Shown here piece after piece: positions 42,496 through 60,706 of a DNA stretch of 64,000 bases. The stretch is from Aciduliprofundum sp. MAR08-339 (GTDB lineage: Archaea > Thermoplasmatota > Thermoplasmata > Thermoplasmatales > Aciduliprofundaceae). The stretch's first letter is position 1, and each line of letters starts with the position of its first letter. The stretch lies in contig NC_019942.1 in NCBI RefSeq assembly GCF_000327505.1, forward strand, positions 558,001 to 622,000, in the 5' to 3' direction. The position numbers were made by a program, and so were the translations under genes. Under the pieces are notes generated by a model. It was given only the letters and a program-made list of their open reading frames with translations. It searched no databases and was not told the DNA's origin.

Positions 42496-43209
42496 TCAAC
42501 ATTCCTCTATTTTTCTGATCCTTTTCTTTATAAAAGATTGCATTTTCTTCGATGCAGAAGAATATTGAGAATTTATTTTCATCAGCGCAGATATCAAAAA
42601 CTCTTTCCTTACAAATTTGATGGCGAGGCAATCTGCCTCATACTCAAAATACTGCCACATTAATCTGCGTAATACCAGATAAAATAGAATTGTACCCCAG
42701 AGAATTATCACTTTCAAGTTTAGTTCCGTATTGGCGGATAAATGTAAAAGAGGAAGCAGTATCACTCCGTTAACTCCTGCACCGATTGTGACATCGAATA
42801 AAAATATCTTCTTCATTACATGCCTGAGTTTGATATGTGCCAGTTCATGGGCTAATACTCCCAGAATTTCATTCTTATCAAGTATTGAAAGAATTCTTTT
42901 TGTGAAAAATATGTACTTTCCTTTCGCACCTACCTGAAATGTATTAACTACTTCAAGATCCATTATGTATATTTCTATATTTTTCACTTTCATTCTTTTC
43001 ATAAGTTCATCAATTTCCCTCATACGGAGTCTCTCGATCTTTGCGGCCAATTTTTCTGCTCCGGGAAGCTCATACCAGATTGTGGAAGCGATGAGCAAAA
43101 GAAGACTGAATATTGTCACATACCTCCACGGTGCAGATAAAATCACGAAAAATAGTAAAGAAATGAAAATGAGTATGCCGATGTACAGCCAAAAAATCCT
43201 AATCCTCAT
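42496..43209 (-). CDS. Membrane M48-like zinc metalloprotease
   Basis: The 237-residue protein has two N-terminal helices (about 5-25 and 29-45). A cytosolic domain carries the zinc site HELAHIKLRH (about 142-151) with a downstream Glu in YFEYEADCLA (the third zinc ligand pattern ExxxD). Two further helices lie between. This is the layout of HtpX/BlaR-type proteases. It overlaps the preceding gene of the four-paralogue array by 11 bases, so it is co-translated with them and may process or degrade them. Confidence 0.85.
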   Translation of the reverse strand: MRIRIFWLYIGILIFISLLFFVILSAPWRYVTIFSLLLLIASTIWYELPGAEKLAAKIERLRMREIDELMKRMKVKNIEIYIMDLEVVNTFQVGAKGKYIFFTKRILSILDKNEILGVLAHELAHIKLRHVMKKIFLFDVTIGAGVNGVILLPLLHLSANTELNLKVIILWGTILFYLVLRRLMWQYFEYEADCLAIKFVRKEFLISALMKINSQYSSASKKMQSFIKKRIRKIEEC

Positions 43210-43726
43210 TGTTTACTCCCTTCAGATATTTCACATCTCCCGTCTCCAGGAATTTTATATACCTATCTGGAAGTATGAGTGTGATTTTCTGTGCTCTTGT
43301 CATTGCTGTGTATAACATCCTTATCCTGACTGGCGGTGTTCCTTTGGCAAATTTACCCACTTTCTTTAAATATACCATATATCCGTAATAGACCACTACA
43401 AAGGAGAGTAGAAATACAGCCAGTGAAATATTGCTTAAAGTTAACCCTTCAAGTAAGGTTTGGATGCTCATCATTATCAATACAATTGCCATCAGATTAA
43501 GAAGTAGAAGATATGCAGGACTTTTAAAAACAATTGCCCACCTTATTATTCTAAGTGTTCCTCCAAACATCACGTATGCTGGAACAAATGCAATTAGCAT
43601 ATTTCCTGCTAATGAATATCGCGGATTGTAATATACAAAACATAACATTATCCATGCAAAAATTATAGAAAGCGAAAGGCTAATTATGAGTTCCTCAACG
43701 AATCCTTTTTTGGTGTTATCAAGCAT
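43199..43726 (-). CDS. Four-helix membrane protein, array paralogue 4
   Basis: The 175-residue protein is the last of four tandem homologues. It starts MLDNTKKGFVEELII, has four membrane helices (about 12-32, 38-58, 65-85, 92-112), and ends in a cytosolic tail with PPVRIRML, QKITLILPDRYIKFLETGDV and KYLKG. The tail is the most conserved part of the array. No known family. It overlaps genes on both sides, including the M48-like protease. The DNA at 43235-43272 is nearly identical to 44790-44827. Confidence 0.8.
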   Translation of the reverse strand: MLDNTKKGFVEELIISLSLSIIFAWIMLCFVYYNPRYSLAGNMLIAFVPAYVMFGGTLRIIRWAIVFKSPAYLLLLNLMAIVLIMMSIQTLLEGLTLSNISLAVFLLSFVVVYYGYMVYLKKVGKFAKGTPPVRIRMLYTAMTRAQKITLILPDRYIKFLETGDVKYLKGVNNED

Positions 43727-44231
43727 TTTTCTTCACCTCTAAATATTTTATGTTTCCTGTTTCTAAATATTTTATGTATCTGTCTGGAAAAATTAAAGTA
43801 ATTCTCTGCTTTTTTGACATTATTGATCGGAGTATTGCGTATCTTTCAGGGGGAATTTTTACCCGATACACTTTAAACTTTTTATGGAATTTAATTATAA
43901 GAAGCAATGAGAAGTATAATCCTGCGAATACGAGAAATAAAATAATATTGGCCCAACTTGGATTATTAAATAGTGATTCTCCAGTGGCTATAACCATGGC
44001 AATGCCCGGAAGATTCAGCATGTGCAACCACACATGGCTTCTGTAAACTATAGAAAGCCTTAAGATATGAAAAATATAAAAACTTAAAGGAAATAAAATT
44101 ACTGCAGATATTACAATATCAAAAAACTTCATGTTCTTTTGGGTAGCTATCTCCATCAATATAAGTGCAGAACTCAAAGAAATTGTTAGTATCATCTCAA
44201 TGGCAAAACCTCTTCTGGTATTGTCAAGCAT
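43719..44231 (-). CDS. Four-helix membrane protein, array paralogue 3
   Basis: The 170-residue protein starts MLDNTRRGFAIEMIL, with four predicted helices and the tail PPERYAILRSIMSKKQRI followed by TLIFPDRYIKYLETGNIKYL. It overlaps paralogue 4 by 8 bases and shares one base with paralogue 2. Function unknown; the strict conservation of the start and tail, against divergent helices, suggests that both ends contact partners. Confidence 0.8.
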   Translation of the reverse strand: MLDNTRRGFAIEMILTISLSSALILMEIATQKNMKFFDIVISAVILFPLSFYIFHILRLSIVYRSHVWLHMLNLPGIAMVIATGESLFNNPSWANIILFLVFAGLYFSLLLIIKFHKKFKVYRVKIPPERYAILRSIMSKKQRITLIFPDRYIKYLETGNIKYLEVKKNA

Positions 44232-44764
44232 TATTCTTCACCTCTTATGTATTTTACGTCTCCTGTGTCCAAGAATTTCATATATCTCTCAGGGAGAATC
44301 ATTGTGAATTTTTGTTTTCTGGTTAAGATACTACGCAACATCTGTATCCTTTCAGGGGGTACTGTCTTTTTGAAAAGACCTTTTACTCTTAATGAATAAA
44401 TCCACAGGGTATAAAGAATGGCACCTACGAGTATAATTATAAAAAATATCTCACTACCCCCGAATTTTAATCCTTTAGTTAAGTCTTTGAACGTATCTAT
44501 TCCAATGAAAAGGAGAACTATGAAAAAGAATGAGTACATGAAGTATAAAACTACATATGCTCGAAAGACAAAAGCATATCTCATCAACCTTATGAACGGA
44601 AAATATATGAATAGAGGAACTATAAAGGCCATGAAGTAATCTCCCGCTGATATGCCTCCTGATGAACTTTTGTGCGTTAAGAGCAAAGCCAAGCCCGTCA
44701 GTATGTCTAATGTTGCTACAATAACAATCTCTTCAACGAATCCTTTTTTGGTATTCTCAAGCAT
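44231..44764 (-). CDS. Four-helix membrane protein, array paralogue 2
   Basis: The 177-residue protein starts MLENTKKGFVEEIVI, has four helices, and ends VPPERIQMLRSILTRKQKFT then MILPERYMKFLDTGDVKYI. It is slightly more divergent in the tail than its neighbours (Glu for Asp, Met for Ile). It overlaps paralogue 1 by 8 bases. Function unknown. Confidence 0.8.
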   Translation of the reverse strand: MLENTKKGFVEEIVIVATLDILTGLALLLTHKSSSGGISAGDYFMAFIVPLFIYFPFIRLMRYAFVFRAYVVLYFMYSFFFIVLLFIGIDTFKDLTKGLKFGGSEIFFIIILVGAILYTLWIYSLRVKGLFKKTVPPERIQMLRSILTRKQKFTMILPERYMKFLDTGDVKYIRGEE

Positions 44765-45287
44765 TATTCTTCACCCCCAAATATTTTTTATCTCCCGTCT
44801 CTAAGAATTTTATATACCTATCTGGAAACACCAAAGTAATTCTCTCCCACATACTCATTTTCCATTTTAATTGCTGAATTCTAAGTCCGGGCGGTGACTT
44901 TTTTCTTATGGCATCTCTTTTTAAATACATAATTACAAAATAAATAAATGAGGTGAGGATGAGGCCAAAACCGATAACAAAGCCATCTAAACTTTTCACA
45001 TTTCCTATCGTTGCCGCACCTATGAAAACTGCTATGAATGCGGGAAAATGCAGAAAGTAAAGGTATATGGGTGCATGGTACACTATAGCCCAGCGAATTA
45101 TTCTGAGCACACTTCCAAAAATCACCAGAAGCAGAATGAAAACCACTATGTTATCGATATAAGAGTGCCCGGATGATGCTCCCGTATAATTGTAAAGAGC
45201 CATACTCCCGATTGCTAAACTAAAAGTAATTAGCAGTTCCTCCGCAAATCCGGCCCATGTGTTGTCCAGAAATCTTCTTGGCTCCAT
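44757..45287 (-). CDS. Four-helix membrane protein, array paralogue 1
   Basis: The 176-residue first member of the array begins MEPRRFLDNTWAGFAEELLI, so the FLDNT...GF..E motif lies slightly inside. Four helices precede the tail PPGLRIQQLKWKMSMWERI, TLVFPDRYIKFLETGDKKYL. ATG 45287 is chosen because the T/A-rich TATA region (about 45325-45311) lies at leaderless distance; an upstream ATG at 45341 would precede it. This promoter probably drives all five overlapping genes. Confidence 0.8.
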   Translation of the reverse strand: MEPRRFLDNTWAGFAEELLITFSLAIGSMALYNYTGASSGHSYIDNIVVFILLLVIFGSVLRIIRWAIVYHAPIYLYFLHFPAFIAVFIGAATIGNVKSLDGFVIGFGLILTSFIYFVIMYLKRDAIRKKSPPGLRIQQLKWKMSMWERITLVFPDRYIKFLETGDKKYLGVKNNA

Positions 45288-45370
45288 GCTACTATTGGTT
45301 ATGTTTGGAAAATAAAAAAATTTTGGGATATCTGATAACAAAGTCTATTTAAATCTAAGAAAACTTCCTC

Positions 45371-48136: not shown

Positions 48137-48961
48137 ATGAACATAAGCCTGAAGATTCCTGCAGCATTACTTCTAATATGGCTTACCGTTTCTCTAGGTG
48201 CAATTTTGCCCACCACAACCATAAAGTTCAGCACCCCAGTATCCACGAGACCACAGCAGGTCGTGGTTTCTCCACCAACTCAGGAATCCTCAGGCCCCTC
48301 TTACTTTATGTATTTCCTGCAGGCAATTCTCTGGGGTATAGTGGCCATAGCCGTCGTGGGTGCATTTGTATACCGTCAGAGATTTCTTAAAGAGGCCCTT
48401 ATGGGCGTAGTTGGTATGTTTTTAGCGCTTTTGCTGTTCGGTGCAATATATTTTCTTGCAGATAAGATCACCTTCATTCTTTACTCAAAAAGTGGTGCGA
48501 TTCCCGCCCATCAGGGAAGTACGCCCTCCTACGCGGGGAATATGCTCATTCTCATTGTGCTTTCTGTTGTAATGGGTCTTATTTTTGGGTTGTTTGTGGT
48601 TATGGTTTACCGTCGCAGGGAGGTTAAGGTTGAAAAGAAGAGGATAACCACAAGGGAAGCGGTTGAAAAGGCGATTTATGAGGTTAAGATTGGCAAGGAT
48701 GTCCGTGGAGCAATACTTTCTGCCTATAAGGAGATGGAGCTTCTAATGCGCACTCATGGTGTTGAGGATAAGAGCTACTACACGCCCCGTGAGTTCAGAG
48801 AATTTGCGCTCAGCACGCTCAAAATATCTCCCAAGCCTGTGGATGTGCTCACGACCCTTTTTGAAATTGCCCGGTACAGCGGTCACCATATGAGTGAGGA
48901 GCACAGAAAACTTGCCCTTAATGCCCTGGAGGAGATAAAAAATGAAACCGGAGGAAAGTAA
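48137..48961 (+). CDS. DUF4129-domain membrane protein
   Basis: The 274-residue protein has a signal anchor (about 5-24) and an extracytoplasmic Pro/Ser/Thr segment. Three more helices lie at about 60-80, 88-112 and 135-160. A cytosolic DUF4129 domain follows (about 175-265; VRGAILSAYKEMELLMRTHG and YTPREFREFALSTL). ATG 48137 is leaderless after GTTTTAAATT (48106-48115). It opens a five-gene cluster (48137-52110) that includes MoxR and DUF58 proteins. It resembles the transglutaminase/DUF58/MoxR surface-protein systems but lacks the transglutaminase gene here. Confidence 0.85.
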   Translation: MNISLKIPAALLLIWLTVSLGAILPTTTIKFSTPVSTRPQQVVVSPPTQESSGPSYFMYFLQAILWGIVAIAVVGAFVYRQRFLKEALMGVVGMFLALLLFGAIYFLADKITFILYSKSGAIPAHQGSTPSYAGNMLILIVLSVVMGLIFGLFVVMVYRRREVKVEKKRITTREAVEKAIYEVKIGKDVRGAILSAYKEMELLMRTHGVEDKSYYTPREFREFALSTLKISPKPVDVLTTLFEIARYSGHHMSEEHRKLALNALEEIKNETGGK

Positions 48962-49508
48962 GGTAACGAGAATGGTTATTGCGAGAAGAATGGGCTTTAT
49001 GGGCATGAATCCTGAGCCAACCGGAAAGAGCAATGCATGGGTGTGGTATATTGCCATAATCCTGGCCTTCTCATTCTACGCAATAATGTCCATTGAGTTT
49101 TTCCTTCTAATTGTGCTTCTCATATCCCTGATTTACATACCATTCATCTTTGCCATAAGAAATGCTCCCAAGCCCAGAGTTGAAGAGGAGGAGCGTGTTG
49201 TTGTTGATGAGGATATTGCCCATTTCAAAGAGACCGTGAAAAAGGCTCTTGAGGGTAAGGCTGTGGCCCAGAGAGATATAGAGCTGAGGGTTCTCAACAC
49301 TCTAGCCATAGATATGAGTATAAGGTACGATATTCCCGAGGTTCTTGTCAGGAGAAACCTATCCAATGAGAAATTTCTCCGAAGGTATCTGGGAGATAAA
49401 GCAAAAATAGTGGCGGAAATGTTCAGAAGAATTCACGATCTTAGGACTGCTCTGCCCAGGGACGAGTTTTTGGAAAATATAAATACCATTCTGGAGGCGA
49501 TGAAATGA
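48942..49508 (+). CDS. Membrane protein of the MoxR cluster
   Basis: The 188-residue protein has two central helices (about 28-45 and 50-68) and a helical cytosolic tail (VKKALEGKAVAQRDIELRVLNTLAIDM). No family assigned. It overlaps the DUF4129 gene by 20 bases and the MoxR gene by 4 bases, so it belongs to the operon. The tail could dock the AAA ATPase. Confidence 0.75.
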   Translation: MKPEESKVTRMVIARRMGFMGMNPEPTGKSNAWVWYIAIILAFSFYAIMSIEFFLLIVLLISLIYIPFIFAIRNAPKPRVEEEERVVVDEDIAHFKETVKKALEGKAVAQRDIELRVLNTLAIDMSIRYDIPEVLVRRNLSNEKFLRRYLGDKAKIVAEMFRRIHDLRTALPRDEFLENINTILEAMK

Positions 49509-50437
49509 AGGAAAAGATGGAAAAAATTATTGATGAAGTGAAGAAGGTAATAGTTGGAAAGGATGAGGTACTGCGCGAGGTCCTCTACACCATTCTGGCC
49601 GGAGGGCACATACTCTTCGAGGACTATCCTGGTCTGGCAAAGACGCTCATAGTGAAATCCTTTGCACAGGTTCTCGGCTGTGATTTCAAGCGTGTGCAGT
49701 TCACACCCGATCTTATGCCCAGTGATATCACGGGTGCCTACATATTTGACAGAAAAACCTCCGAGTTCAAGTTTATGAAAGGACCGGTGTTTACGAATAT
49801 TCTTCTTGCCGATGAAATAAACCGCTCTCCCCCCAAGACTCAGGCAGCACTTCTTGAGGCCATGCAGGAGAGGCAGGTTACAATTGAGGGAGAGACCTAC
49901 AAACTTGAAGAACCATTCATAGTCATCGCAACCCAAAACCCGATAGAGTATGAGGGCACATACCCACTTCCGGAGGCACAGCTTGACAGGTTTTTGGTTA
50001 AGTTGAGCATAGGGTATCCGAGCAAGAAGGACGAGATTGAAATTCTGAAGAGGAGAATAGCATGGAGGAGAGATGAGATTCCTTTGAACAAGGTGGTTAC
50101 AAGGGATGAATTGCTTGAAATGAAAAAAATGGTGGAGGATATATTCATTCAGGACGATATTCTTGATTACATAGTGCGCATAGTCCGTTCCACACGCAGC
50201 CATGTGCAGGTTGAAGTCGGGGCAAGTCCCAGAGGAAGCCTCGCCATAATGAGGCTATCCCGTGCCAGGGCGCTTGTATACGGTAGGGATTATGTGGTTC
50301 CTGATGATGTTAAGGCCGTTACACGGATCGCACTGGTGCATAGAATAATTCTCAAGCCTGAACCTTGGATCCGTGGTGTTAGACCAAGGGATGTTGTGGA
50401 GGATGTGTTAAAGAAGGTGCCTGTGCCCAAGGTGTAA
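49505..50437 (+). CDS. MoxR-family AAA ATPase
   Basis: The 310-residue chaperone-like ATPase shows a Walker A variant EDYPGLAKT (about 39-47), Walker B LLADEINRSPPKTQAALLEAMQERQVT, sensor 1 FIVIATQNPIEYEGTYPLPEAQLDRF and the lid GASPRGSLAIMRLSRA. MoxR proteins with DUF58 partners typically aid maturation of complexes through a MIDAS/vWA partner. The start overlaps the previous stop (ATGA). Confidence 0.95.
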   Translation: MKEKMEKIIDEVKKVIVGKDEVLREVLYTILAGGHILFEDYPGLAKTLIVKSFAQVLGCDFKRVQFTPDLMPSDITGAYIFDRKTSEFKFMKGPVFTNILLADEINRSPPKTQAALLEAMQERQVTIEGETYKLEEPFIVIATQNPIEYEGTYPLPEAQLDRFLVKLSIGYPSKKDEIEILKRRIAWRRDEIPLNKVVTRDELLEMKKMVEDIFIQDDILDYIVRIVRSTRSHVQVEVGASPRGSLAIMRLSRARALVYGRDYVVPDDVKAVTRIALVHRIILKPEPWIRGVRPRDVVEDVLKKVPVPKV

Positions 50438-50440
50438 AGG

Positions 50441-51616
50441 ATGCGGACCCTCCACTACTATGCTCTTACGCTATACTTTGCCCTGCTCCTGTTTGTTGGG
50501 ATAGTTCTGTTTTCTCCCTTGGCCATGTTTCTTGCCCTGCCCATACTCTGGCTTATAATATTCTCTGAAATTCTACCGTTCAAACCTGTAAAATTCAAGC
50601 GCAAATTTGAAGAGCGCAGGTTTGTGGAGGGTAATACCACAGAATTTGTTTACACTCTTAATGGAAGGGGTTATTACTTCCTTCAAGATGCCATTAACGT
50701 ACTTCAGGGGTACTGCAAGGATCGATGCGTTGTAAAGAAGAAAGTGCATCTGGACAAATTCGGCAAGATAGAATTTAAGGAGGCATTGCTCTACTCTGAA
50801 GATGTTCTTGGTATAAGAAGTTACGGCAGGAAGGTCAGAGACAAGGGTGAGCTGAGGATTTATCCAAAAATAGAGTACATAAGGAAACTGAAGATAAAGC
50901 CTCGAAAAACACGCAGTATCCTGGGGGATTATCCTTCACGCCTAAAGGGGCCCGGAATGGAATTTGCGGATATAAGGGAGTATTACCCCGGGGATGATAT
51001 GCGCTGGATAAACTGGAAGGCAACTGCACGTAGGAATGAACTCATGGTCAACGAGTACGAAAGTGAGCGCACAGGAGATACCGTGATACTTCTGGATGTT
51101 CGGCGCTTTATGAAGGGTGCAGAAGAATACGAAAAATTGCTCAATGCTTCTGTTCGGGCAGCAGCAACACTTGCCACGTATCTTTCACGTACAAGAAGCA
51201 GGGTGGGATTTGTCGTTCTTGGTAATACTGTGGATTGGATATACCCAACCTACGGAAAGAGAGCAATGTATTTGATTTTGGAGAGATTGCTGTACCTACG
51301 AAGTGAGAAGATAAGTCGTTTGACCTTTGATTATGGGAAGTTTATAGTTTCCAGATTTTTCCCTCCAAATTCATTTGTGATACTCATATCTCCACTGCTT
51401 TCTTGGGATATTGATGATGCCATTGTTGAACTTCTTGCCAAGGGTTACGACGTTCTCACAATATCCCCCACGCTTATAGGACATGGTGGGGATATGGCCT
51501 CAGAGATACTGCGTGCTGAGAGGGAAGTGCGTTTGAGAAGGATAAGGATGTTTGGGAGAGTGGTTGATTGGAACATAGAATATCCTCTGACTTCCATACT
51601 GAAGGTGATGAGATGA
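50441..51616 (+). CDS. DUF58 domain protein (MoxR partner)
   Basis: The 391-residue protein has two N-terminal helices (about 8-40), a beta-sandwich segment, and the DUF58 signature GMEFADIREYYPGDDMRWINWKATAR (about 175-200). A vWA-like domain follows (TVILLDVRRFMKG). DUF58 proteins usually pair with MoxR ATPases, whose gene ends 3 bases upstream. Substrate of the pair is unknown. Confidence 0.92.
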   Translation: MRTLHYYALTLYFALLLFVGIVLFSPLAMFLALPILWLIIFSEILPFKPVKFKRKFEERRFVEGNTTEFVYTLNGRGYYFLQDAINVLQGYCKDRCVVKKKVHLDKFGKIEFKEALLYSEDVLGIRSYGRKVRDKGELRIYPKIEYIRKLKIKPRKTRSILGDYPSRLKGPGMEFADIREYYPGDDMRWINWKATARRNELMVNEYESERTGDTVILLDVRRFMKGAEEYEKLLNASVRAAATLATYLSRTRSRVGFVVLGNTVDWIYPTYGKRAMYLILERLLYLRSEKISRLTFDYGKFIVSRFFPPNSFVILISPLLSWDIDDAIVELLAKGYDVLTISPTLIGHGGDMASEILRAEREVRLRRIRMFGRVVDWNIEYPLTSILKVMR

Positions 51617-52110
51617 AAAAAGAATGGTACTTCTTGGGCACTTACTACGCCCTTCTTCTGGTTGTTCCCATGGGGAATCTGCGCTACATATGGCTTGTTG
51701 TTCTTGATGTTCTTGCATCTCTTGCATTCTTGTATTTATATAGGGTGGTTAAGGATGAGATCCTATTCTACGTTTACAATTTCATAGCCCTCGTTGGTAT
51801 AGTTTTCGCCCTGGGAAATTACAATCCATACTCTCCCCTGACTCTCGGAGTAGCTTACACACTCATGGCCCTGTGGATGCTCCACATGACCTATGCAAGA
51901 TTTGAGCCCATGTTTGGAAAAGTTCGTCTTGACACGATAGCGTACACCCTTCTAACATTTCCACTGGCCTATTTTTCAGTTTATCTCTTTCTCATATATC
52001 CCATCGGATACGGGTTCTGGGGCGTGTTCACCCTGGTGATGCTGATTGTAATTTTGATTTATGTGCTTATGCGCTCACCGAAATCTGAGAAGCGCAGCCA
52101 CACCCCCTAA
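51613..52110 (+). CDS. Polytopic membrane protein, last gene of the MoxR cluster
   Basis: The 165-residue protein has about five or six helices with short loops and no recognised motif. ATG 51613 overlaps the DUF58 stop. Its end overlaps the convergent aPelota gene by 36 bases, the longest gene overlap I see in the window. Confidence 0.75.
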   Translation: MKKEWYFLGTYYALLLVVPMGNLRYIWLVVLDVLASLAFLYLYRVVKDEILFYVYNFIALVGIVFALGNYNPYSPLTLGVAYTLMALWMLHMTYARFEPMFGKVRLDTIAYTLLTFPLAYFSVYLFLIYPIGYGFWGVFTLVMLIVILIYVLMRSPKSEKRSHTP

Positions 52111-53662: not shown

Positions 53663-54553
53663 TTATTTAACATGCAATATGTATTTATGGAAAGAATCTT
53701 CAAGATATTCTTTCATATTCCACAATGAGATACTGATTTCAGGAAATATATAGATGTTGTATTCATTATATATTTCCTTTACAAATTTAAATGCTTGCTC
53801 TTTAATGTGCTCAAGTTTGTTTTTAAAAATGAGACTATATAGGTAAGCTAAACCATCCTGATCAAAAGAATTATTTGTTTGCTCATATAAATTTAAATAA
53901 TATTTTTGGGGATAATCTACTTTATATATTCCCAGAGTTTTTTTTGGTAATTTATCAGTATGCCTAATCAAATGACTTACTGGATGTTCATTTCCAGGCT
54001 TACCATATAGCTCTTTTTCTGAAAAGTTTTTAGGCACCACACCAAATTGTTTTAAAAATGAGAGGCTCTTGTTTAAAACTTCTTTTATTTTATCTTTTGA
54101 GTAATCGTCTCTTTTGAGATCTATCGCTTGATCTTTGAAGAAAGCCCCCACACTAATCAGAGTCCATAGTATTACTTTTTCTTTGTTTGTCAGATTGGGT
54201 ACTTTTTTGTACTCTCCAAAGAATTTCCGATCTAAATAAGAAACTATCCCATCAATTCCAAGTATATCTTTTTCAATGTACCATATTCCTTTTCCAGACA
54301 ATATATATCTTACTGTGTCAGCATCCAAAATTTTTATGATGTATCCTTGGTTAATTAATTCGTCTCTCACGAGCTTCCCTATACCTTCTCCTTTAACAGC
54401 AGATGATTTCAGGAGCATTTCAAATCTTCTATTTGATTTCATCTCAATTAATGAAATTAATACGGATTTTTGTTTTAGTTTTTCACTCTTTTTTAATTCA
54501 TCATATAATTTGTCATACATGAATTTTAACACATCTTTTGATGTGTCATTCAT
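53663..54553 (-). CDS. Unknown protein of the HerA-NurA-SMC block (296 aa)
   Basis: I do not recognise this 296-residue, soluble, AT-rich-coded protein. Residues about 70-110 (GIGKLVRDELINQGYIIKI, YILSGKGIWYIEKDILG) could be a winged helix. The rest is alpha-helical with a basic central part (SLSFLKQFGVVPKNFSEKELYG). No nuclease or ATPase motif is visible. It is last in the block and overlaps the SMC-like gene by 8 bases, so it is probably made together with it. It could be a loader, sensor or effector. Confidence 0.75.
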   Translation of the reverse strand: MNDTSKDVLKFMYDKLYDELKKSEKLKQKSVLISLIEMKSNRRFEMLLKSSAVKGEGIGKLVRDELINQGYIIKILDADTVRYILSGKGIWYIEKDILGIDGIVSYLDRKFFGEYKKVPNLTNKEKVILWTLISVGAFFKDQAIDLKRDDYSKDKIKEVLNKSLSFLKQFGVVPKNFSEKELYGKPGNEHPVSHLIRHTDKLPKKTLGIYKVDYPQKYYLNLYEQTNNSFDQDGLAYLYSLIFKNKLEHIKEQAFKFVKEIYNEYNIYIFPEISISLWNMKEYLEDSFHKYILHVK

Positions 54554-56702
54554 TCAAATCCCCCCTTGTAAAATTAGTAACTACGACTCCTCCATCATGA
54601 AAACGAGTGATTACAAAAGCAATTAATTTTCCTTTGGAATAAAGAATATTGCATCTATCTATTACTGGAGCTAAAGTCTTAGAATCTATATAACTCTCAT
54701 CAAAAAGAGCAATTATTTTTCGGGGATCATCTTTATTAAGAAGGGACATAATATATGCGGCCAGCGAATGTCCCGTACCTAGATTAGTCAAATCTATGAT
54801 TTTTCCACCATTTAAATATATAGTATCATTAATCATGTCTACTTTCTCCACATCATACTTTTCGTTAACATACTTGATTGTTTTAATTTTTTTACCAAGA
54901 TATTTTCCTACAAGCTCATGGTATTTAATAAACCCCCACTCATCTAGATCAATTGAATTTTTGGAATGTTGTAGTGCATTATTGTACTCCGGAAATTCAA
55001 CCATAAATTTCCGCTCAATCCTAGAAATAATTTTTGTGAGTTTTTCAATATTTTCTTTGTCAGATTGATATTTATGCTCTGGAAGGGATTTCATTTTCTT
55101 TAGTTGCTTTTCTTCCTTTTCTAACAGTGCTTTGAATTTTCCTATCTCTTTAAGGCTTTTTTCTATAGATTTCCTTAACTCTATTAATTTATCTTCAAAA
55201 GATGTCTCATCCAAGTCCATATAATCTTTTATGTATTCTTCCTCTTCAAATCTTTCCTTTATTGAAAAGATTAGAGATAGATCTATTTCCCCATTCTCTC
55301 CAAATCCATATTCTATACATTTTATTCCATAGTTCTCAACTTTATCCTCAATGTTCTTTAATTTCTTTTCGAGCTCTTCCAAAGAATTATCTTGATCGCC
55401 CGGATCTTTAGGAAAATCATCTTCTGTAATTCCTAATTTCTTGATATTTTTAATTATAATTGGAATTGTTTTATCTAGAATATACTCTATCGAATCTATC
55501 TCCCTTACAATCTTTTTTAACAATTCATACTCTTCTTGAATGAACTTTTTTGAGGAGTATTCTTCTTCAAGTTTTTTAATGTATTCTTCTATCGCTATAT
55601 TTGTGCCAGGTAGTTCTATATTATATGAAGAAAAGTCACGTAAAACGTTAATAAGTTTCTGGATGATTTCTATCTCAATTAGTTCCTCTTGAATTATTTT
55701 TTCCCTTTCATTTAATATGTCATTTACCTTGTTTTTTAGATCCTGCAGTCTTGCTATAGCTAAAATGCGTGCATCTTCGTTGGCAGCAAGGTTTTTTGTA
55801 GCATTTGAAATACTCTTTTTTATATTTGGTATCTCTCTGATAAGATCTGGATAACCAAGATCATTTATGGTATCGATAATAACTTCTTTTGAGTTAATTA
55901 CCTCATCAATTAGTTTTTTTAAATTATTTACAAAATTATTATATTTTTCTATTTTCTTTTTAGATTTTTTATCTTCTCTTTTGATATTTTTCATGCGATT
56001 TTTAATAATATCTCTCATCATGTAATTCTCTACAAAAAATTTAACCGCACGGTATTTCTGCAAATCCTCCAATAGTGCATTTTGCCCATTATATTTTTTT
56101 TCTTCTTCGGTAATCCTTTTTTTATAATCTTCAATACGTTTCTCTAATTTTTTGATCATATCTGGATCTTGCGAGTTATATATTTCCTCCTGTACCTTTT
56201 CGATATACTTTCTGAAATCCGATAAAGCTGTACCTATACTGGTGTATAGACTAACTAGTTCCTCTACTGCATTTTTAATTTTTTCTCTTGGGTTGTCAGG
56301 AATGTCATATATTAGCCTGTATTCTTTATTAAACCTTTCAGGAGAAATAGGAGTTTTCTTCCCATTTTCAAAAAGATATACTATGGGATTATCCATCTCC
56401 CTGGTCTTTTCGGAAATTAGGGTTTCATTAGGAATATTTATTTTTATTTTAAATTCGATTTTGTTTTTCTTACCGTCTATCAGTTTTTTCATATCTTTTA
56501 ATAAAGTATGAGTTATATTTTCATTATTTTTCAAACCATAGAGCGCAATGGCAAGCATATTAAGTAATGTGCTTTTACCGATACTATTTGGCCCCTCTAT
56601 TAATACTATATTTGGTAATTTTTTACCTATTTTTTCATTTGGTGTGAATTTTCTTATCTCATTGCCTTCATCCCTTTCTAGTACATAATCATATTCTATC
56701 AT
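54546..56702 (-). CDS. Rad50/SMC-like ATPase
   Basis: The 718-residue ABC-type ATPase has Walker A GPNSIGKST (37-45) in the N-terminal lobe. Long coiled coils follow (about 145-300 and 330-600). The C-terminal lobe has a divergent signature LGTGHS (641-646) and Walker B IALFDES (D668, E669). There is no CxxC zinc hook visible in the coil. It resembles RecN/SbcC/Rad50-like proteins more than condensins. It overlaps the 60-residue gene upstream by 4 bases. Coding is unusually rich in A and T compared with flanking genes. Confidence 0.85.
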   Translation of the reverse strand: MIEYDYVLERDEGNEIRKFTPNEKIGKKLPNIVLIEGPNSIGKSTLLNMLAIALYGLKNNENITHTLLKDMKKLIDGKKNKIEFKIKINIPNETLISEKTREMDNPIVYLFENGKKTPISPERFNKEYRLIYDIPDNPREKIKNAVEELVSLYTSIGTALSDFRKYIEKVQEEIYNSQDPDMIKKLEKRIEDYKKRITEEEKKYNGQNALLEDLQKYRAVKFFVENYMMRDIIKNRMKNIKREDKKSKKKIEKYNNFVNNLKKLIDEVINSKEVIIDTINDLGYPDLIREIPNIKKSISNATKNLAANEDARILAIARLQDLKNKVNDILNEREKIIQEELIEIEIIQKLINVLRDFSSYNIELPGTNIAIEEYIKKLEEEYSSKKFIQEEYELLKKIVREIDSIEYILDKTIPIIIKNIKKLGITEDDFPKDPGDQDNSLEELEKKLKNIEDKVENYGIKCIEYGFGENGEIDLSLIFSIKERFEEEEYIKDYMDLDETSFEDKLIELRKSIEKSLKEIGKFKALLEKEEKQLKKMKSLPEHKYQSDKENIEKLTKIISRIERKFMVEFPEYNNALQHSKNSIDLDEWGFIKYHELVGKYLGKKIKTIKYVNEKYDVEKVDMINDTIYLNGGKIIDLTNLGTGHSLAAYIMSLLNKDDPRKIIALFDESYIDSKTLAPVIDRCNILYSKGKLIAFVITRFHDGGVVVTNFTRGDLNE

Positions 56703-56881
56703 TCACTATCACCACCCTTCTCCCTTAAATACTGGAGAATTTCCTCAAGTATTTCTTCATGTTTTTTGCCACTCATCACAAGGAAAACTATTTTCCTTTC
56801 AAGTTCATCATCCAACAGTCCATTTAATAGTTCTTTTATTTCATCATTCAGTTCAATATTATGTACCACCATCTTTTTCAC
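56699..56881 (-). CDS. Small helical protein between HerA-like and SMC-like genes (60 aa)
   Basis: The 60-residue acidic, helical protein (IELNDEIKELLNGLLDDELERK, HEEILEEILQYLREKGG) overlaps the HerA-like gene by 4 bases and the SMC-like gene by 4 bases. Both overlaps imply translational coupling and a stable stoichiometry. No family is recognised. It may be an adaptor between the two ATPases. Confidence 0.7.
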   Translation of the reverse strand: MKKMVVHNIELNDEIKELLNGLLDDELERKIVFLVMSGKKHEEILEEILQYLREKGGDSE

Positions 56882-58443
56882 CTCTTTATCTCAAACACTC
56901 CTGCTAACGCTAATGGGAATTTAAATATTTTGAGATGAGGCATTCCATATATAGATCCTATAGCATATCCTTTTTTCAAAGATTCAACTTCCACCAATGA
57001 AATATCCAATCCCAGAGATTTTATAATTTTATAATTTGAGTTGAAAAATATTTTTGTGTTAATTACGCTCTCAAGTCCTCTGGGTATATCTGTTGGATTC
57101 TGAGATGAAAATATAATACCTATTTGTTTACTTCTTCCTGTTCTGCAGATGGTATCTAAATCACCTAATGCCTCTTTGGAACTATCTGTTTTATAGAATT
57201 GATGAACTTCATCTATAATTATTAATATTGGTGGGTATGCCTTTCTTTTCTCGTCTTTAGCTTTAACAATTTTATGAAGTAGGTCCCTAAGTAAGATAGA
57301 ACCGAAATCTATCCCTCCTGACTCTGCCACATGAATAACGGACATCTTTCCAGGGAATAATATATCATCTACATCTAAAGTCTTAGCATCCGGATTATCA
57401 AAGAAAATGCGTGCGTTATCCAGATTATATAAAAGGTTTGTGTATGTAGAATGGTGTAGCTGAGTTTCTCCAATTTCTCCCCGCTCATTTAGTGTTTTAT
57501 ACATATACTTGTCATTTTTGCCTCTTTGAAAATAGGTTACAAAATCTGAAAATTTAGCCTCGGGCATATCTTTTTCAATTCTCCAACAATCCCTCCAATA
57601 CCTAAAAATATTAGGTAAACTTTGAGCGCCAACATCTGAAATATTGTGAAGCAATCCAGTAAGAGCATTTGGATCTATGTCGTTTACATTAAGTGTTATC
57701 TTTTCCCCATATTCGGTCTCTACTCCCGCAGGAAGATTTGTGGTGGAAGGATAGTAAATAACAAAATTCTCTATTCCATGTGGTGAGACCCCCAAATCTT
57801 CCCATTCTTTTAGTATTTCTCCATTATTTGTTTGAGAGGGGAGATACATCTTTAATAAGTCATCTCCTTTTACATTTACGGCTAATACTGAACCCTGCAT
57901 CTCTTCTACAAAATATTGCGCTAAATACTTGGCAGCTACTGTTTTTCCACTACCTGTTTTTCCACAGATTAGTATTTGATGATAATACATATCTTCTGGA
58001 AGATTCACGGTTATATATTTTCCATGCTCATCTATCAATTTCTGATTTTCCCCATATTGAACAGTAGCCAAGAAAACTTTGGGTCCCTTTTTTTCACTAC
58101 CTATAGCAATATCTATTTCCTCTTGAGTAGATCTTCTTGCTATACTTTGCGGCTTTAGAAAATCTATTAACCCATCCTCACGCTTGCTTATTATTCTCAC
58201 AATATCTGCGTACACAATATTTAAAGTTCTCCTATCCGCCGCCAAGGGTTTTAGATCCATATCTACAATGAGTGGAGAAGGAGCGTAGGGTGAATATTGA
58301 AAGCTCTTTGTAACTCTCAAGATAAATTTAGTCCCACCTTCTTCAACAGTAAGATAAGATCCTTTTGGAAGCATTCCTTTTATATCAGTTTTCGATATTA
58401 GTTTTATCGATCCTTTTTCCTCACCTAATACTATCCAGCTCAT
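56878..58443 (-). CDS. HerA-like DNA translocase (DUF87)
   Basis: The 521-residue protein has a HAS-barrel-like N-terminal region. The RecA-type ATPase domain shows Walker A GKTGSGKT (161-168), Walker B ILIIIDE (D411, E412), and CRTGRSKQIGIIFSSQNP with the arginine/sensor region. HerA hexamers feed DNA to NurA for end resection. ATG 58443 overlaps the NurA-like stop (ATGA). The partners around it differ from the usual Mre11-Rad50-HerA-NurA repair operon because no mre11 is present. Confidence 0.88.
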   Translation of the reverse strand: MSWIVLGEEKGSIKLISKTDIKGMLPKGSYLTVEEGGTKFILRVTKSFQYSPYAPSPLIVDMDLKPLAADRRTLNIVYADIVRIISKREDGLIDFLKPQSIARRSTQEEIDIAIGSEKKGPKVFLATVQYGENQKLIDEHGKYITVNLPEDMYYHQILICGKTGSGKTVAAKYLAQYFVEEMQGSVLAVNVKGDDLLKMYLPSQTNNGEILKEWEDLGVSPHGIENFVIYYPSTTNLPAGVETEYGEKITLNVNDIDPNALTGLLHNISDVGAQSLPNIFRYWRDCWRIEKDMPEAKFSDFVTYFQRGKNDKYMYKTLNERGEIGETQLHHSTYTNLLYNLDNARIFFDNPDAKTLDVDDILFPGKMSVIHVAESGGIDFGSILLRDLLHKIVKAKDEKRKAYPPILIIIDEVHQFYKTDSSKEALGDLDTICRTGRSKQIGIIFSSQNPTDIPRGLESVINTKIFFNSNYKIIKSLGLDISLVEVESLKKGYAIGSIYGMPHLKIFKFPLALAGVFEIKR

Positions 58444-59498
58444 GGTGACCACCCAAATCTTTCTTGATTAACAGTAGGAGTTAATCTTGATGATTTAATA
58501 ATCTCATCTAGGTTAAATAAGTGTAAAGTTTCTCTAGCGTATTTTTCTGCTATAGCAATAGGTCTAATTTGCGGATTTTTTACATCTCCTTGAACCAATA
58601 AGAAATAATAGATCATGTCTAAAATATCTTGGATTGTATTTTTATATTTTTCAAAAGTTAATGGATGGAACTCAACACGCAAAGGACTAGTATCAAAAGC
58701 TTTTATATAACAGAATATTCTTGCATTTCTGGGATTATTTGGATCTTCATATTTAAAGAAGGCTGTTCTCATACCTTTTCTTAGTTCAGAATATACCCAA
58801 TGCATATCTGAGTTATATCTCCCTTTAAGTTGGGGTATATTATCTACGATTATACTACTTTGACTATTTTTTACTATAAAAACAGGAATTATATTTTTTG
58901 GTGTGAAAAACTCATATATAGCATTTATTACATAAACATACCAATCTCCACCAATCAGAGGGCCATCTATAAAGAGAAGAGTATTTGAATATAGATTCTC
59001 TTTTAAAAAATCTACTTTGTCCCTAACATACACTTCTTTGGAGGCATAAGGTATGTCCTCCGTAACAACAACCCCACTATTAAACATAGATTTATATTTT
59101 TTAGCTTTTGTAAAGAAATATAAAGCAATCAATGATGATGGTAGATATTCCCCTTCATACATATACACAAGTGTATGTGAAAACAAATATGCTATTCCTT
59201 CAAGGGCAGTAAATTTATTTATAGATTCATCATAAGCCGCAATTAACGGATATTTTCCTATGCATTCCATACCTTTTTTAGCATCCAATTCATATCCTAC
59301 ATTTACTTCCTCCAATGGATAAAACTTCATAATTTGGTTGGAAATTACATCATACTTTCCAAATCCAATATTGTGTTCTACCTCAATTATTTTTAAATTA
59401 GAAATATTACTAATAGTGTTTTTAAACTTAGGATGCAATGTTACACGTTTTAAGGGTTTAGGTATCGTCTCAATTTTTTGCTTATATTTTTTTATCAT
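58440..59498 (-). CDS. NurA-like nuclease
   Basis: The 352-residue protein has a NurA-type RNase H-like domain. The first acidic motif is AAYDES (D90), the second is LFIDGP (D178), and the C-terminal motif PIAIAEKYARETLHLF is the usual NurA ending. Its N-terminal 60 residues are basic (IKKYKQKIETIPKPLKR). A strong ribosome site GGAGG (59513-59509) precedes ATG 59498. It is first in the block and is read directly from the right-hand boundary element. Confidence 0.8.
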   Translation of the reverse strand: MIKKYKQKIETIPKPLKRVTLHPKFKNTISNISNLKIIEVEHNIGFGKYDVISNQIMKFYPLEEVNVGYELDAKKGMECIGKYPLIAAYDESINKFTALEGIAYLFSHTLVYMYEGEYLPSSLIALYFFTKAKKYKSMFNSGVVVTEDIPYASKEVYVRDKVDFLKENLYSNTLLFIDGPLIGGDWYVYVINAIYEFFTPKNIIPVFIVKNSQSSIIVDNIPQLKGRYNSDMHWVYSELRKGMRTAFFKYEDPNNPRNARIFCYIKAFDTSPLRVEFHPLTFEKYKNTIQDILDMIYYFLLVQGDVKNPQIRPIAIAEKYARETLHLFNLDEIIKSSRLTPTVNQERFGWSP

Positions 59499-59550
59499 AC
59501 TTACTATTCCTCCATTTCATTACTAAATGATTAATAGCGAGCGATTTCCC

Positions 59551-59652
59551 ATAACGTTTCAGCGGCTATGCGAAGTTCGCCCGAAGGGCGAATTTGGGCA
59601 AACAAAGTTTGCCGTATAGCCGCGTGTTTCCTGAAGTTTCGGCGAGCGTTAT
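59551..59652. repeat. Right structured boundary element (three-way junction)
   Basis: Outer stem GCGGCTAT (59562-59569) pairs with ATAGCCGC (59616-59623). Two inner hairpins follow: TTCGCCC/GGGCGAA with GAA loop (59576-59592) and GGCAAAC/GTTTGCC with AAA loop (59597-59613). The ends ATAACG (59551-59556) and CGTTAT (59647-59652) are complementary. The left flank CGAGCGATTTCCCATAAC matches the inverted boundary of the left element. Architecture is the same as 53549-53645 while stem sequences differ with compensating changes. Confidence 0.8.
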
Positions 59653-59887
59653 ATTTGATTACTTTTTTGTTTGTTAATTTTTTTGATATTTCTGCCTGTT
59701 CAAATAACTCCGTTATTTCTCTGTTTTCATTTTTTATTTTGTTGGTTGCTAATATTTTTCTTCTTTATTTTCTTTTGAGCGAGCCGAAATTTGGGCGTTC
59801 GGCCACGGAAACTCCAAATATACGAAATTCGTATAACCCTCCTTATAGGTGTTATTCGGAAGTTTTATTACCTTATAACCCATTGAG
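59653..59887. promoter_or_regulatory. Region upstream of xerA with palindrome and hairpin
   Basis: AT-rich DNA without a gene. It holds a hairpin GCCGAA/TTCGGC (59783-59803, 9-base loop) and the perfect palindrome TATACGAA-A-TTCGTATA (59819-59835; 8+1+8). TTTTATTA (59863-59870) is a TATA-like box for ATG 59888. The palindrome may be a recombinase or regulator binding site. Confidence 0.5.
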
Positions 59888-60706
59888 ATGAATATGTCCT
59901 TCGAGAATAAAAATCTTACTCCAAAGGAGCGATATGAGCTGATTGGAAGACTGATTGAAGAGCTCAAACTCCGCAAATACTCTTACCGCACTGGAAAGGC
60001 GTACATAAACGTGGTGCGAAGATTTCTTCGTTCTGGTATGCAGCCGCGGGAGTTCCTGCTGAAGTATTACGGAGATAAAAGCCGTTCCTCCATTCGGCAG
60101 GCGTATTTCGCCCTGAAATTCTTCTACAAAAATGTCCTTGGCGAGAGATTTGACGAGAGCATTCCGCTGGCGAAGAAGAAGGAAAAATTGCCGGTTGTTC
60201 TCTCTCGAGAAGAGGTAAAGAGAATGATTTACGGCACGGAAAATATGAAGCATCGCCTCGTGCTGATGTTTCTCTACTACGCAGGCATGCGACTGAATGA
60301 AGTTCGCAATATCAAATGGCAGGACATAGATTTTGATAGGGAGGTAATCCACATAAAAATCGCAAAGGGTGAAAAAGAGAGGGTGGTATTTCTTCATCCT
60401 GAACTGAAGGGACATCTGGAGATGTTCGGAAAAAGGAGATATGGATATGTTTTAATTTCCCAGCGGGGGAAAAGATACTCCCCCAAGAGTATCCAGCTCA
60501 TAGTGAAAAATGCGGCAAGGAGAGCGAAAATAAATAAAAATGTGACTCCTCATGTTTTAAGATACAGCTTCGCCACGCACCTGCTTGAAGGCGGCGCGGA
60601 TATAAGGTACATTCAGCAATTACTTGGCCACAAATATCTGAAAACAACACAGATTTACACGCATGTGGCAAATAAAGAAATAAAAGAGTTAGCAAAATTA
60701 CTCTGA
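59888..60706 (+). CDS. xerA: XerA-type tyrosine recombinase
   Basis: The 272-residue recombinase has an N-terminal SAM-like DNA-binding domain (about 15-90) and a catalytic domain (about 105-265). The active-site set is complete: R135 (AGMRLNEV), K160, H222 and R225 (PHVLRYSFATH), H248 (LLGHKY) and Y257 (TTQIYTHV). Length and motifs match archaeal XerA, which resolves chromosome dimers at dif, but integrases of mobile elements look similar. It lies directly beside the right boundary element. The last 9 bases overlap the convergent DUF35 gene. Confidence 0.93.
   Translation: MNMSFENKNLTPKERYELIGRLIEELKLRKYSYRTGKAYINVVRRFLRSGMQPREFLLKYYGDKSRSSIRQAYFALKFFYKNVLGERFDESIPLAKKKEKLPVVLSREEVKRMIYGTENMKHRLVLMFLYYAGMRLNEVRNIKWQDIDFDREVIHIKIAKGEKERVVFLHPELKGHLEMFGKRRYGYVLISQRGKRYSPKSIQLIVKNAARRAKINKNVTPHVLRYSFATHLLEGGADIRYIQQLLGHKYLKTTQIYTHVANKEIKELAKLL

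Follow-up and report, generated by a model that had tools for sequence, protein, structure and literature searches.

A family of four-helix membrane proteins with a common tail, encoded beside a divergent M48 protease in Aciduliprofundaceae

The window, that is, the whole 64,000-nucleotide stretch that was analysed from the genome of the thermophilic vent archaeon Aciduliprofundum sp. MAR08-339, holds five overlapping ORFs, all on the minus strand, which run in the order A-B-C-D-M48 from position 45287 down to 42496. ORFs, alignments and Pfam agree with the original prediction that these are four paralogous four-helix membrane proteins and an M48-like protease. The type A gene (44757..45287, 176 aa, conserved head and tail) begins with ATG; an alternative upstream TTG start would lengthen it to 45341. 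It is followed by types B (44231..44764, 177 aa), C (43719..44231, 170 aa) and D (43199..43726, 175 aa; AlphaFold2 model below). The last gene (42496..43209, 237 aa) encodes a divergent, short-form, HtpX-like M48 membrane metalloprotease, assigned by its match to Pfam PF01435, a motif scan (HELAH...EYEAD) and a tree. Overlaps are 8 nt between A and B, 1 nt between B and C (TAATG), 8 nt between C and D and 11 nt between D and M48. To call the protease fused by overlap to its possible substrates, as was done previously, overstates the case, since the genes overlap and the proteins are separate. The overlapping genes leave no space for a promoter between them. A possible archaeal TATA-like element, TTAGATTTAAATA, can be read from the sequence upstream of A (45339..45360, minus strand). 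GC content of the array is 0.352, as compared to about 0.45 in the flanks, and its neighbours are an MFS-like gene beyond M48 and a NifX-like protein beyond A. Two further clusters were noticed in the window. On the opposite strand, some 3 kb away from the array, is a DUF4129, MoxR-type AAA ATPase and DUF58 cluster (48137-52110). At 53663-60706, a phage-integrase-family recombinase comes after HerA-like, NurA-like and SMC-like AAA genes. HerA and NurA are the usual end-resection pair; the window cluster has extra partners.

The four proteins form one family. The only matches of D within its own 1.44-Mb genome were A, B and C (E 4e-22 to 1e-29), and in a full-length alignment the other types are 34-40% identical to A. 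The head motif M-x-(D/E)-N-T-x-x-G-F and the tail motif given in the original prediction describe the window genes correctly; among relatives, the type B head reads MLGNK..DF and not MLDNT..GF. A tree of 17 full-length members resolves four types, each spread over genera: A (window A, G010a, G004a and G015; support 100/98), B (window B, G004c, G011a, G010c and G002b; 100/98), C (window C, G002a, G002c, G011b and G003; 94/96) and D (window D, G010b and G004b; 90/87). With whole-protein and tail HMMs the family was found in 7 of 18 Aciduliprofundaceae genomes and nowhere else. It is important to note that five of these seven are fragmented drafts, with several arrays at contig ends. The view that the tail belongs to no known family holds as well, as outside Aciduliprofundaceae the tail HMM yielded no convincing match in searches that covered 101 relatives and 390 genomes of the phylum. 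No convincing match to the four-helix proteins was obtained in Pfam, NCBIfam, PHROG, PADLOC or PDB sequences; hits in the first four were weak, involved one or two members each and stayed below cut-off. One of them, UvrD_C_2 on D (E 0.002, below cut-off, a single member), was rejected as a chance match. The family was also not found in viral contigs, plasmids or phages. Weak A1/A2 matches outside the family were rejected: the one in G044 is part of an M48 protein, and the others are unrelated ORFs, mostly broken or isolated, with no adjacent M48. Weak tail matches in 248-284-aa proteins of G004, G010 and G015 span only 16-18 residues and were likewise set aside. The dN/dS values of the array genes (0.15-0.25) demonstrate that these genes are maintained under purifying selection.

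By hydropathy, 16 of the 17 members have four hydrophobic helices; in window C three rise above threshold. The AlphaFold2 model of D (mean pLDDT 84.2, pTM 0.73) has long helices at residues 6-30, 39-66, 76-92 and 97-123, followed by short helices at 132-141, 144-149 and 154-162, so that the tail forms a small helical region (pLDDT about 88 over residues 131-160). By the positive-inside rule, charges of the head, the middle loop and the tail all fall on one side, and the N-terminal end, the loop that joins helices 2 and 3 and the approximately 45-residue tail are presumably cytosolic. This is the side on which HtpX-type proteases carry their catalytic domain. Against PDB, neither Foldseek (best E 2.5) nor VIA-align (best Z 6.2) found a fold above unrelated helical bundles, and such values are ordinary for helical bundles. 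Conserved positions lie in the head, loop and tail and do not make up a catalytic set. This pattern would suit subunits of a hetero-oligomeric membrane complex (a transporter, channel or scaffold) with the tail as subunit interface and the protease as a helper in assembly or quality control, or acting on other substrates. The four types are older than the split of the genera and share one operon of overlapping genes, as could be expected of such subunits. However, incomplete sets are found: G003 has only C, G015 only A, and G002 B and two copies of C. A fixed four-part complex is thus not obligatory. Taking into account also that no known fold is matched, we regard a hetero-oligomer as possible but on the unlikely side.

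The tail deserves separate attention. Its coding segments, located by tail HMM matches and alignments, lie on the minus strand at 44760..44906 in A (about 49 residues, the recombination zone; HMM match G000:C1:602760-602903), 44234..44374 in B (G000:C1:602234-602374), 43722..43868 in C (G000:C1:601722-601868) and 43205..43351 in D (G000:C1:601205-601351). Across genomes, tails of different types share 70% amino-acid identity and tails of one type 72%, while for the bodies the values are 22% and 48%, respectively. The tail is thus constrained independently of the body that it follows. Gene conversion was considered as the sole cause of tail conservation and rejected, because codon identity at identical residues is too similar in tails (about 0.44-0.51) and bodies (0.38-0.50); selection at the protein level is still needed. 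Recombination, rather than a binding role, may nevertheless account for part of the conservation.

Genes of different types show an abrupt change of similarity inside the tail-coding segment: identity at third codon positions is about 30-50% ahead of the switch and 86-100% beyond it. For B and C of G010, identity over all sites is 57% before and 94% after a breakpoint 81 nt from the stop codon; at third positions it changes from 0.35 to 0.93 with the break 79 nt from the stop (P 0.002), and the high identity runs on into the M48 gene. The same switch at third positions is found between B and C2 of G002 (0.47 to 1.00, P 0.01) and between G010 B and G004 D (0.27 to 0.86, P 0.0025). For A and C of the window genome the crossover is significant over all sites, though not at third positions (P 0.44). 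The switches indicate that recombination or duplication events had their breakpoint within the tail and placed different bodies onto a fixed downstream gene. Types B and C and the M48 also look traded between genera. G010 B is 69% identical to B of G002, which belongs to another genus, and 37% to B of G004 from its own genus; for comparison, the uracil-DNA glycosylases of G004 and G010 are 94% identical. C proteins of G002 and G011, which are of different genera, share 76% identity, and the window M48 is closer to that of G009 from another genus (54%) than to that of G002 from the same genus (37%). Together with the low GC content of the array and its dN/dS values, this exchange speaks for an accessory array of traded, shuffled cassettes and not for a core quality-control operon. 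One G002 array adjoins a zincin-like metallopeptidase (weak MPTase-PolyVal/DUF6782) and a PD-(D/E)XK/Cas4-like nuclease (L029 4481-8217), which suggests a mobile element. In G004, similar-looking gene pairs are present on the outer sides of two array contigs (L026 3-1420 and L027 3489-4932), each consisting of a membrane/extracellular-type protein of about 350 aa and a membrane protein of about 140 aa.

Patchy distribution, an AT-rich array, exchange across genera and swapping of bodies behind a constant tail could also be expected of a conflict module, i.e. a membrane-acting toxin/immunity or anti-virus defence system in which the protease would mature or activate the membrane proteins; the mobile-element-like cargo beside one G002 array points the same way. 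Such a module is quite unlikely in our opinion. No PADLOC or PHROG family is matched, no member turned up in the viral contigs, plasmids and phages, most arrays sit among housekeeping genes, the types are stable under dominant purifying selection and there is no obvious small toxin.

Regarding the protease, its association with the paralogues is real, as originally described, and it recurs in related genomes. Both paralogues and the divergent M48 are present in five of the 18 genomes examined, where the genes are always adjacent and co-directional. Apart from A-B-C-D-M48 in the window, the orders are A-D-B-M48 and C-M48 in G010, A-D-M48 and M48-B in G004, C-B-M48 and C-M48 in G002, and C-D-M48-B in G011, where the array was joined over two contigs through a common 15-residue overlap and the join is therefore putative. 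Linkage holds for short and long forms of the M48 alike. The genes flanking the arrays (NifX-like/MFS in the window; L7Ae/FtsZ-like; PAS kinase/metallopeptidase; UDG/amidohydrolase; a methylase side in G011) are unlike between most arrays and define at least four distinct neighbourhoods. Exceptions exist on both sides. The complete G003 genome (1,486,778 bp), of the same genus as the window, has a single type C paralogue and no Peptidase_M48 match at all, unlike most other Aciduliprofundaceae genomes, in which an HtpX-like M48 is present. The 70% complete G015 has a lone type A paralogue on a contig that carries no M48. G006 has the M48 and no paralogues; so does G009, but there the locus ends at the contig end. 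Homologues spread widely with no protease nearby, which would have spoken against the association, were thus not found, though G003 and G015 do hold a lone paralogue and lack a linked M48. The lone paralogues of G003 and G015 and the lone M48 of G006 indicate that neither partner strictly requires the other. Co-occurrence over the 18 genomes is modest (Fisher P 0.039), and the fact that the genes adjoin each other in several neighbourhoods carries more weight as evidence for linkage.

The neighbourhood could in principle be accidental, with tandem duplicates that happen to adjoin an old, vertically inherited M48 gene. The M48 group is indeed older and much wider than the paralogues: it is found in 60 of 117 genomes of the order, a count that takes in ordinary HtpX-like matches, and elsewhere in the order it usually adjoins unrelated genes. 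Lone M48 genes and lone paralogues exist, and a single ancestral association, inherited and then lost, would yield several linked genomes. Nevertheless, the linkage has survived re-ordering and is seen in four or more different neighbourhoods, with the M48 either terminal or in the middle of the array, and we find a mere accident of descent improbable.

The protease matches the Peptidase_M48 profile (PF01435) with 64.5 bits at a cut-off of 20.3 and has intact-looking zinc motifs, HELAH and FEYEAD (HExxH with the third ligand Glu in ExxxD). In the M48 of G002 (L029/L060 3479-4126) the corresponding motif is FDYDAD, with Asp for the third zinc-ligand Glu, and its activity is uncertain. The window M48 is a short form, without the two helices that come first in its long relatives; its predicted structure, made from three sequences, is poor (pLDDT 63). 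It shares with HtpX the M48 domain, HExxH and ExxxD, membrane helices and a presumed cytosolic catalytic face. It differs from HtpX in its short form, in being operonic with private membrane paralogues and in falling far below the NCBIfam HtpX equivalogs (at most 47 bits against cut-offs of 245-422; best 46.9 against 341). Elsewhere, the window genome encodes another M48, which scores higher against the Pfam profile. Of the suggested resemblance to HtpX-like systems, a role in quality control is possible, while orthology to HtpX does not hold. The other suggestion, signalling by regulated proteolysis of the BlaR/MecR type, is very improbable: M48 and M56 are related, and the protease is like BlaR1/MecR1 (M56) a membrane gluzincin with remote sequence resemblance, but its M56 match of 21.8 bits is under the cut-off of 31, the 237-aa protein consists of the M48 domain only, with neither a penicillin-binding-like nor any other extracytoplasmic sensor domain, the array contains no repressor, regulator or DNA-binding gene and the tail matches no regulator.

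We therefore favour, with a probability of roughly 40%, the explanation that the paralogues are an accessory set of membrane proteins subject to shuffling, and that the HtpX-like protease encoded with them reads their common tail. Up to four ancient types would be produced together with the divergent membrane-anchored M48. The tail, which stays the same whatever body precedes it, would be the handle by which the co-translated M48 recognizes each member; it may also be recognized by other paralogues. The protease would then remove or trim unassembled, damaged or surplus copies. The sequences demonstrate linkage and shuffling; recognition and proteolysis are suggested by the linkage, the predicted topology and the conservation of the tail. 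All types resemble each other in their tail-coding DNA, and this segment therefore also serves as a crossover point, through which bodies are swapped and re-ordered before a constant downstream gene and pass from one genus to another. A bolder form of this explanation, in which the array represents a new membrane cassette system with the tail acting as both recognition tag and recombination joint and bodies exchanged under one dedicated protease, is unlikely.

A function in membrane quality control has been proposed for archaeal HtpX homologues (PMC9263693). Other arrangements resemble the array in part. An M48 next to an RDD-SpoIIM fusion was observed in other genomes of the order, with Pfam matches in both, at L087 19-1829 (G009) and L112 416-2472 (G044); a similar layout occurs at L109 434-2487 (G034), where the partner has no Pfam match. 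In the G009 and G044 pairs, too, the gene for a multi-helix membrane protein overlaps or adjoins that of a divergent M48 from the same wide group; however, the RDD+SpoIIM partner is unrelated in sequence to the four-helix paralogues. A search of the family for SpoIIM found no match in any of the genomes with paralogues. Clusters for head-to-tail cyclised bacteriocins contain SpoIIM, hydrophobic proteins and occasionally an M48 (PMC8659200). The window array similarly combines hydrophobic proteins and an M48 in one cluster. In contrast to those clusters it has no precursor peptide, SpoIIM or exporter, and its paralogues are about 175 aa long with four helices and a predicted long cytosolic tail.

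The protease is of a known kind; no description of the four-helix family, or of its shuffling by way of the tail, exists in the libraries searched. Hardly anything is known of the natural substrates of membrane M48 proteases in archaea (PMC9263693). In the present array an M48 is tied genetically to a few private membrane proteins that have one tail in common. These proteins are directly testable candidate substrates, few in number, and the shared tail is a candidate recognition element for the protease. Our results also document that bodies of a membrane-protein family are swapped through the common segment that codes for the C terminus, and what looks like exchange of cassettes between genera of vent archaea.
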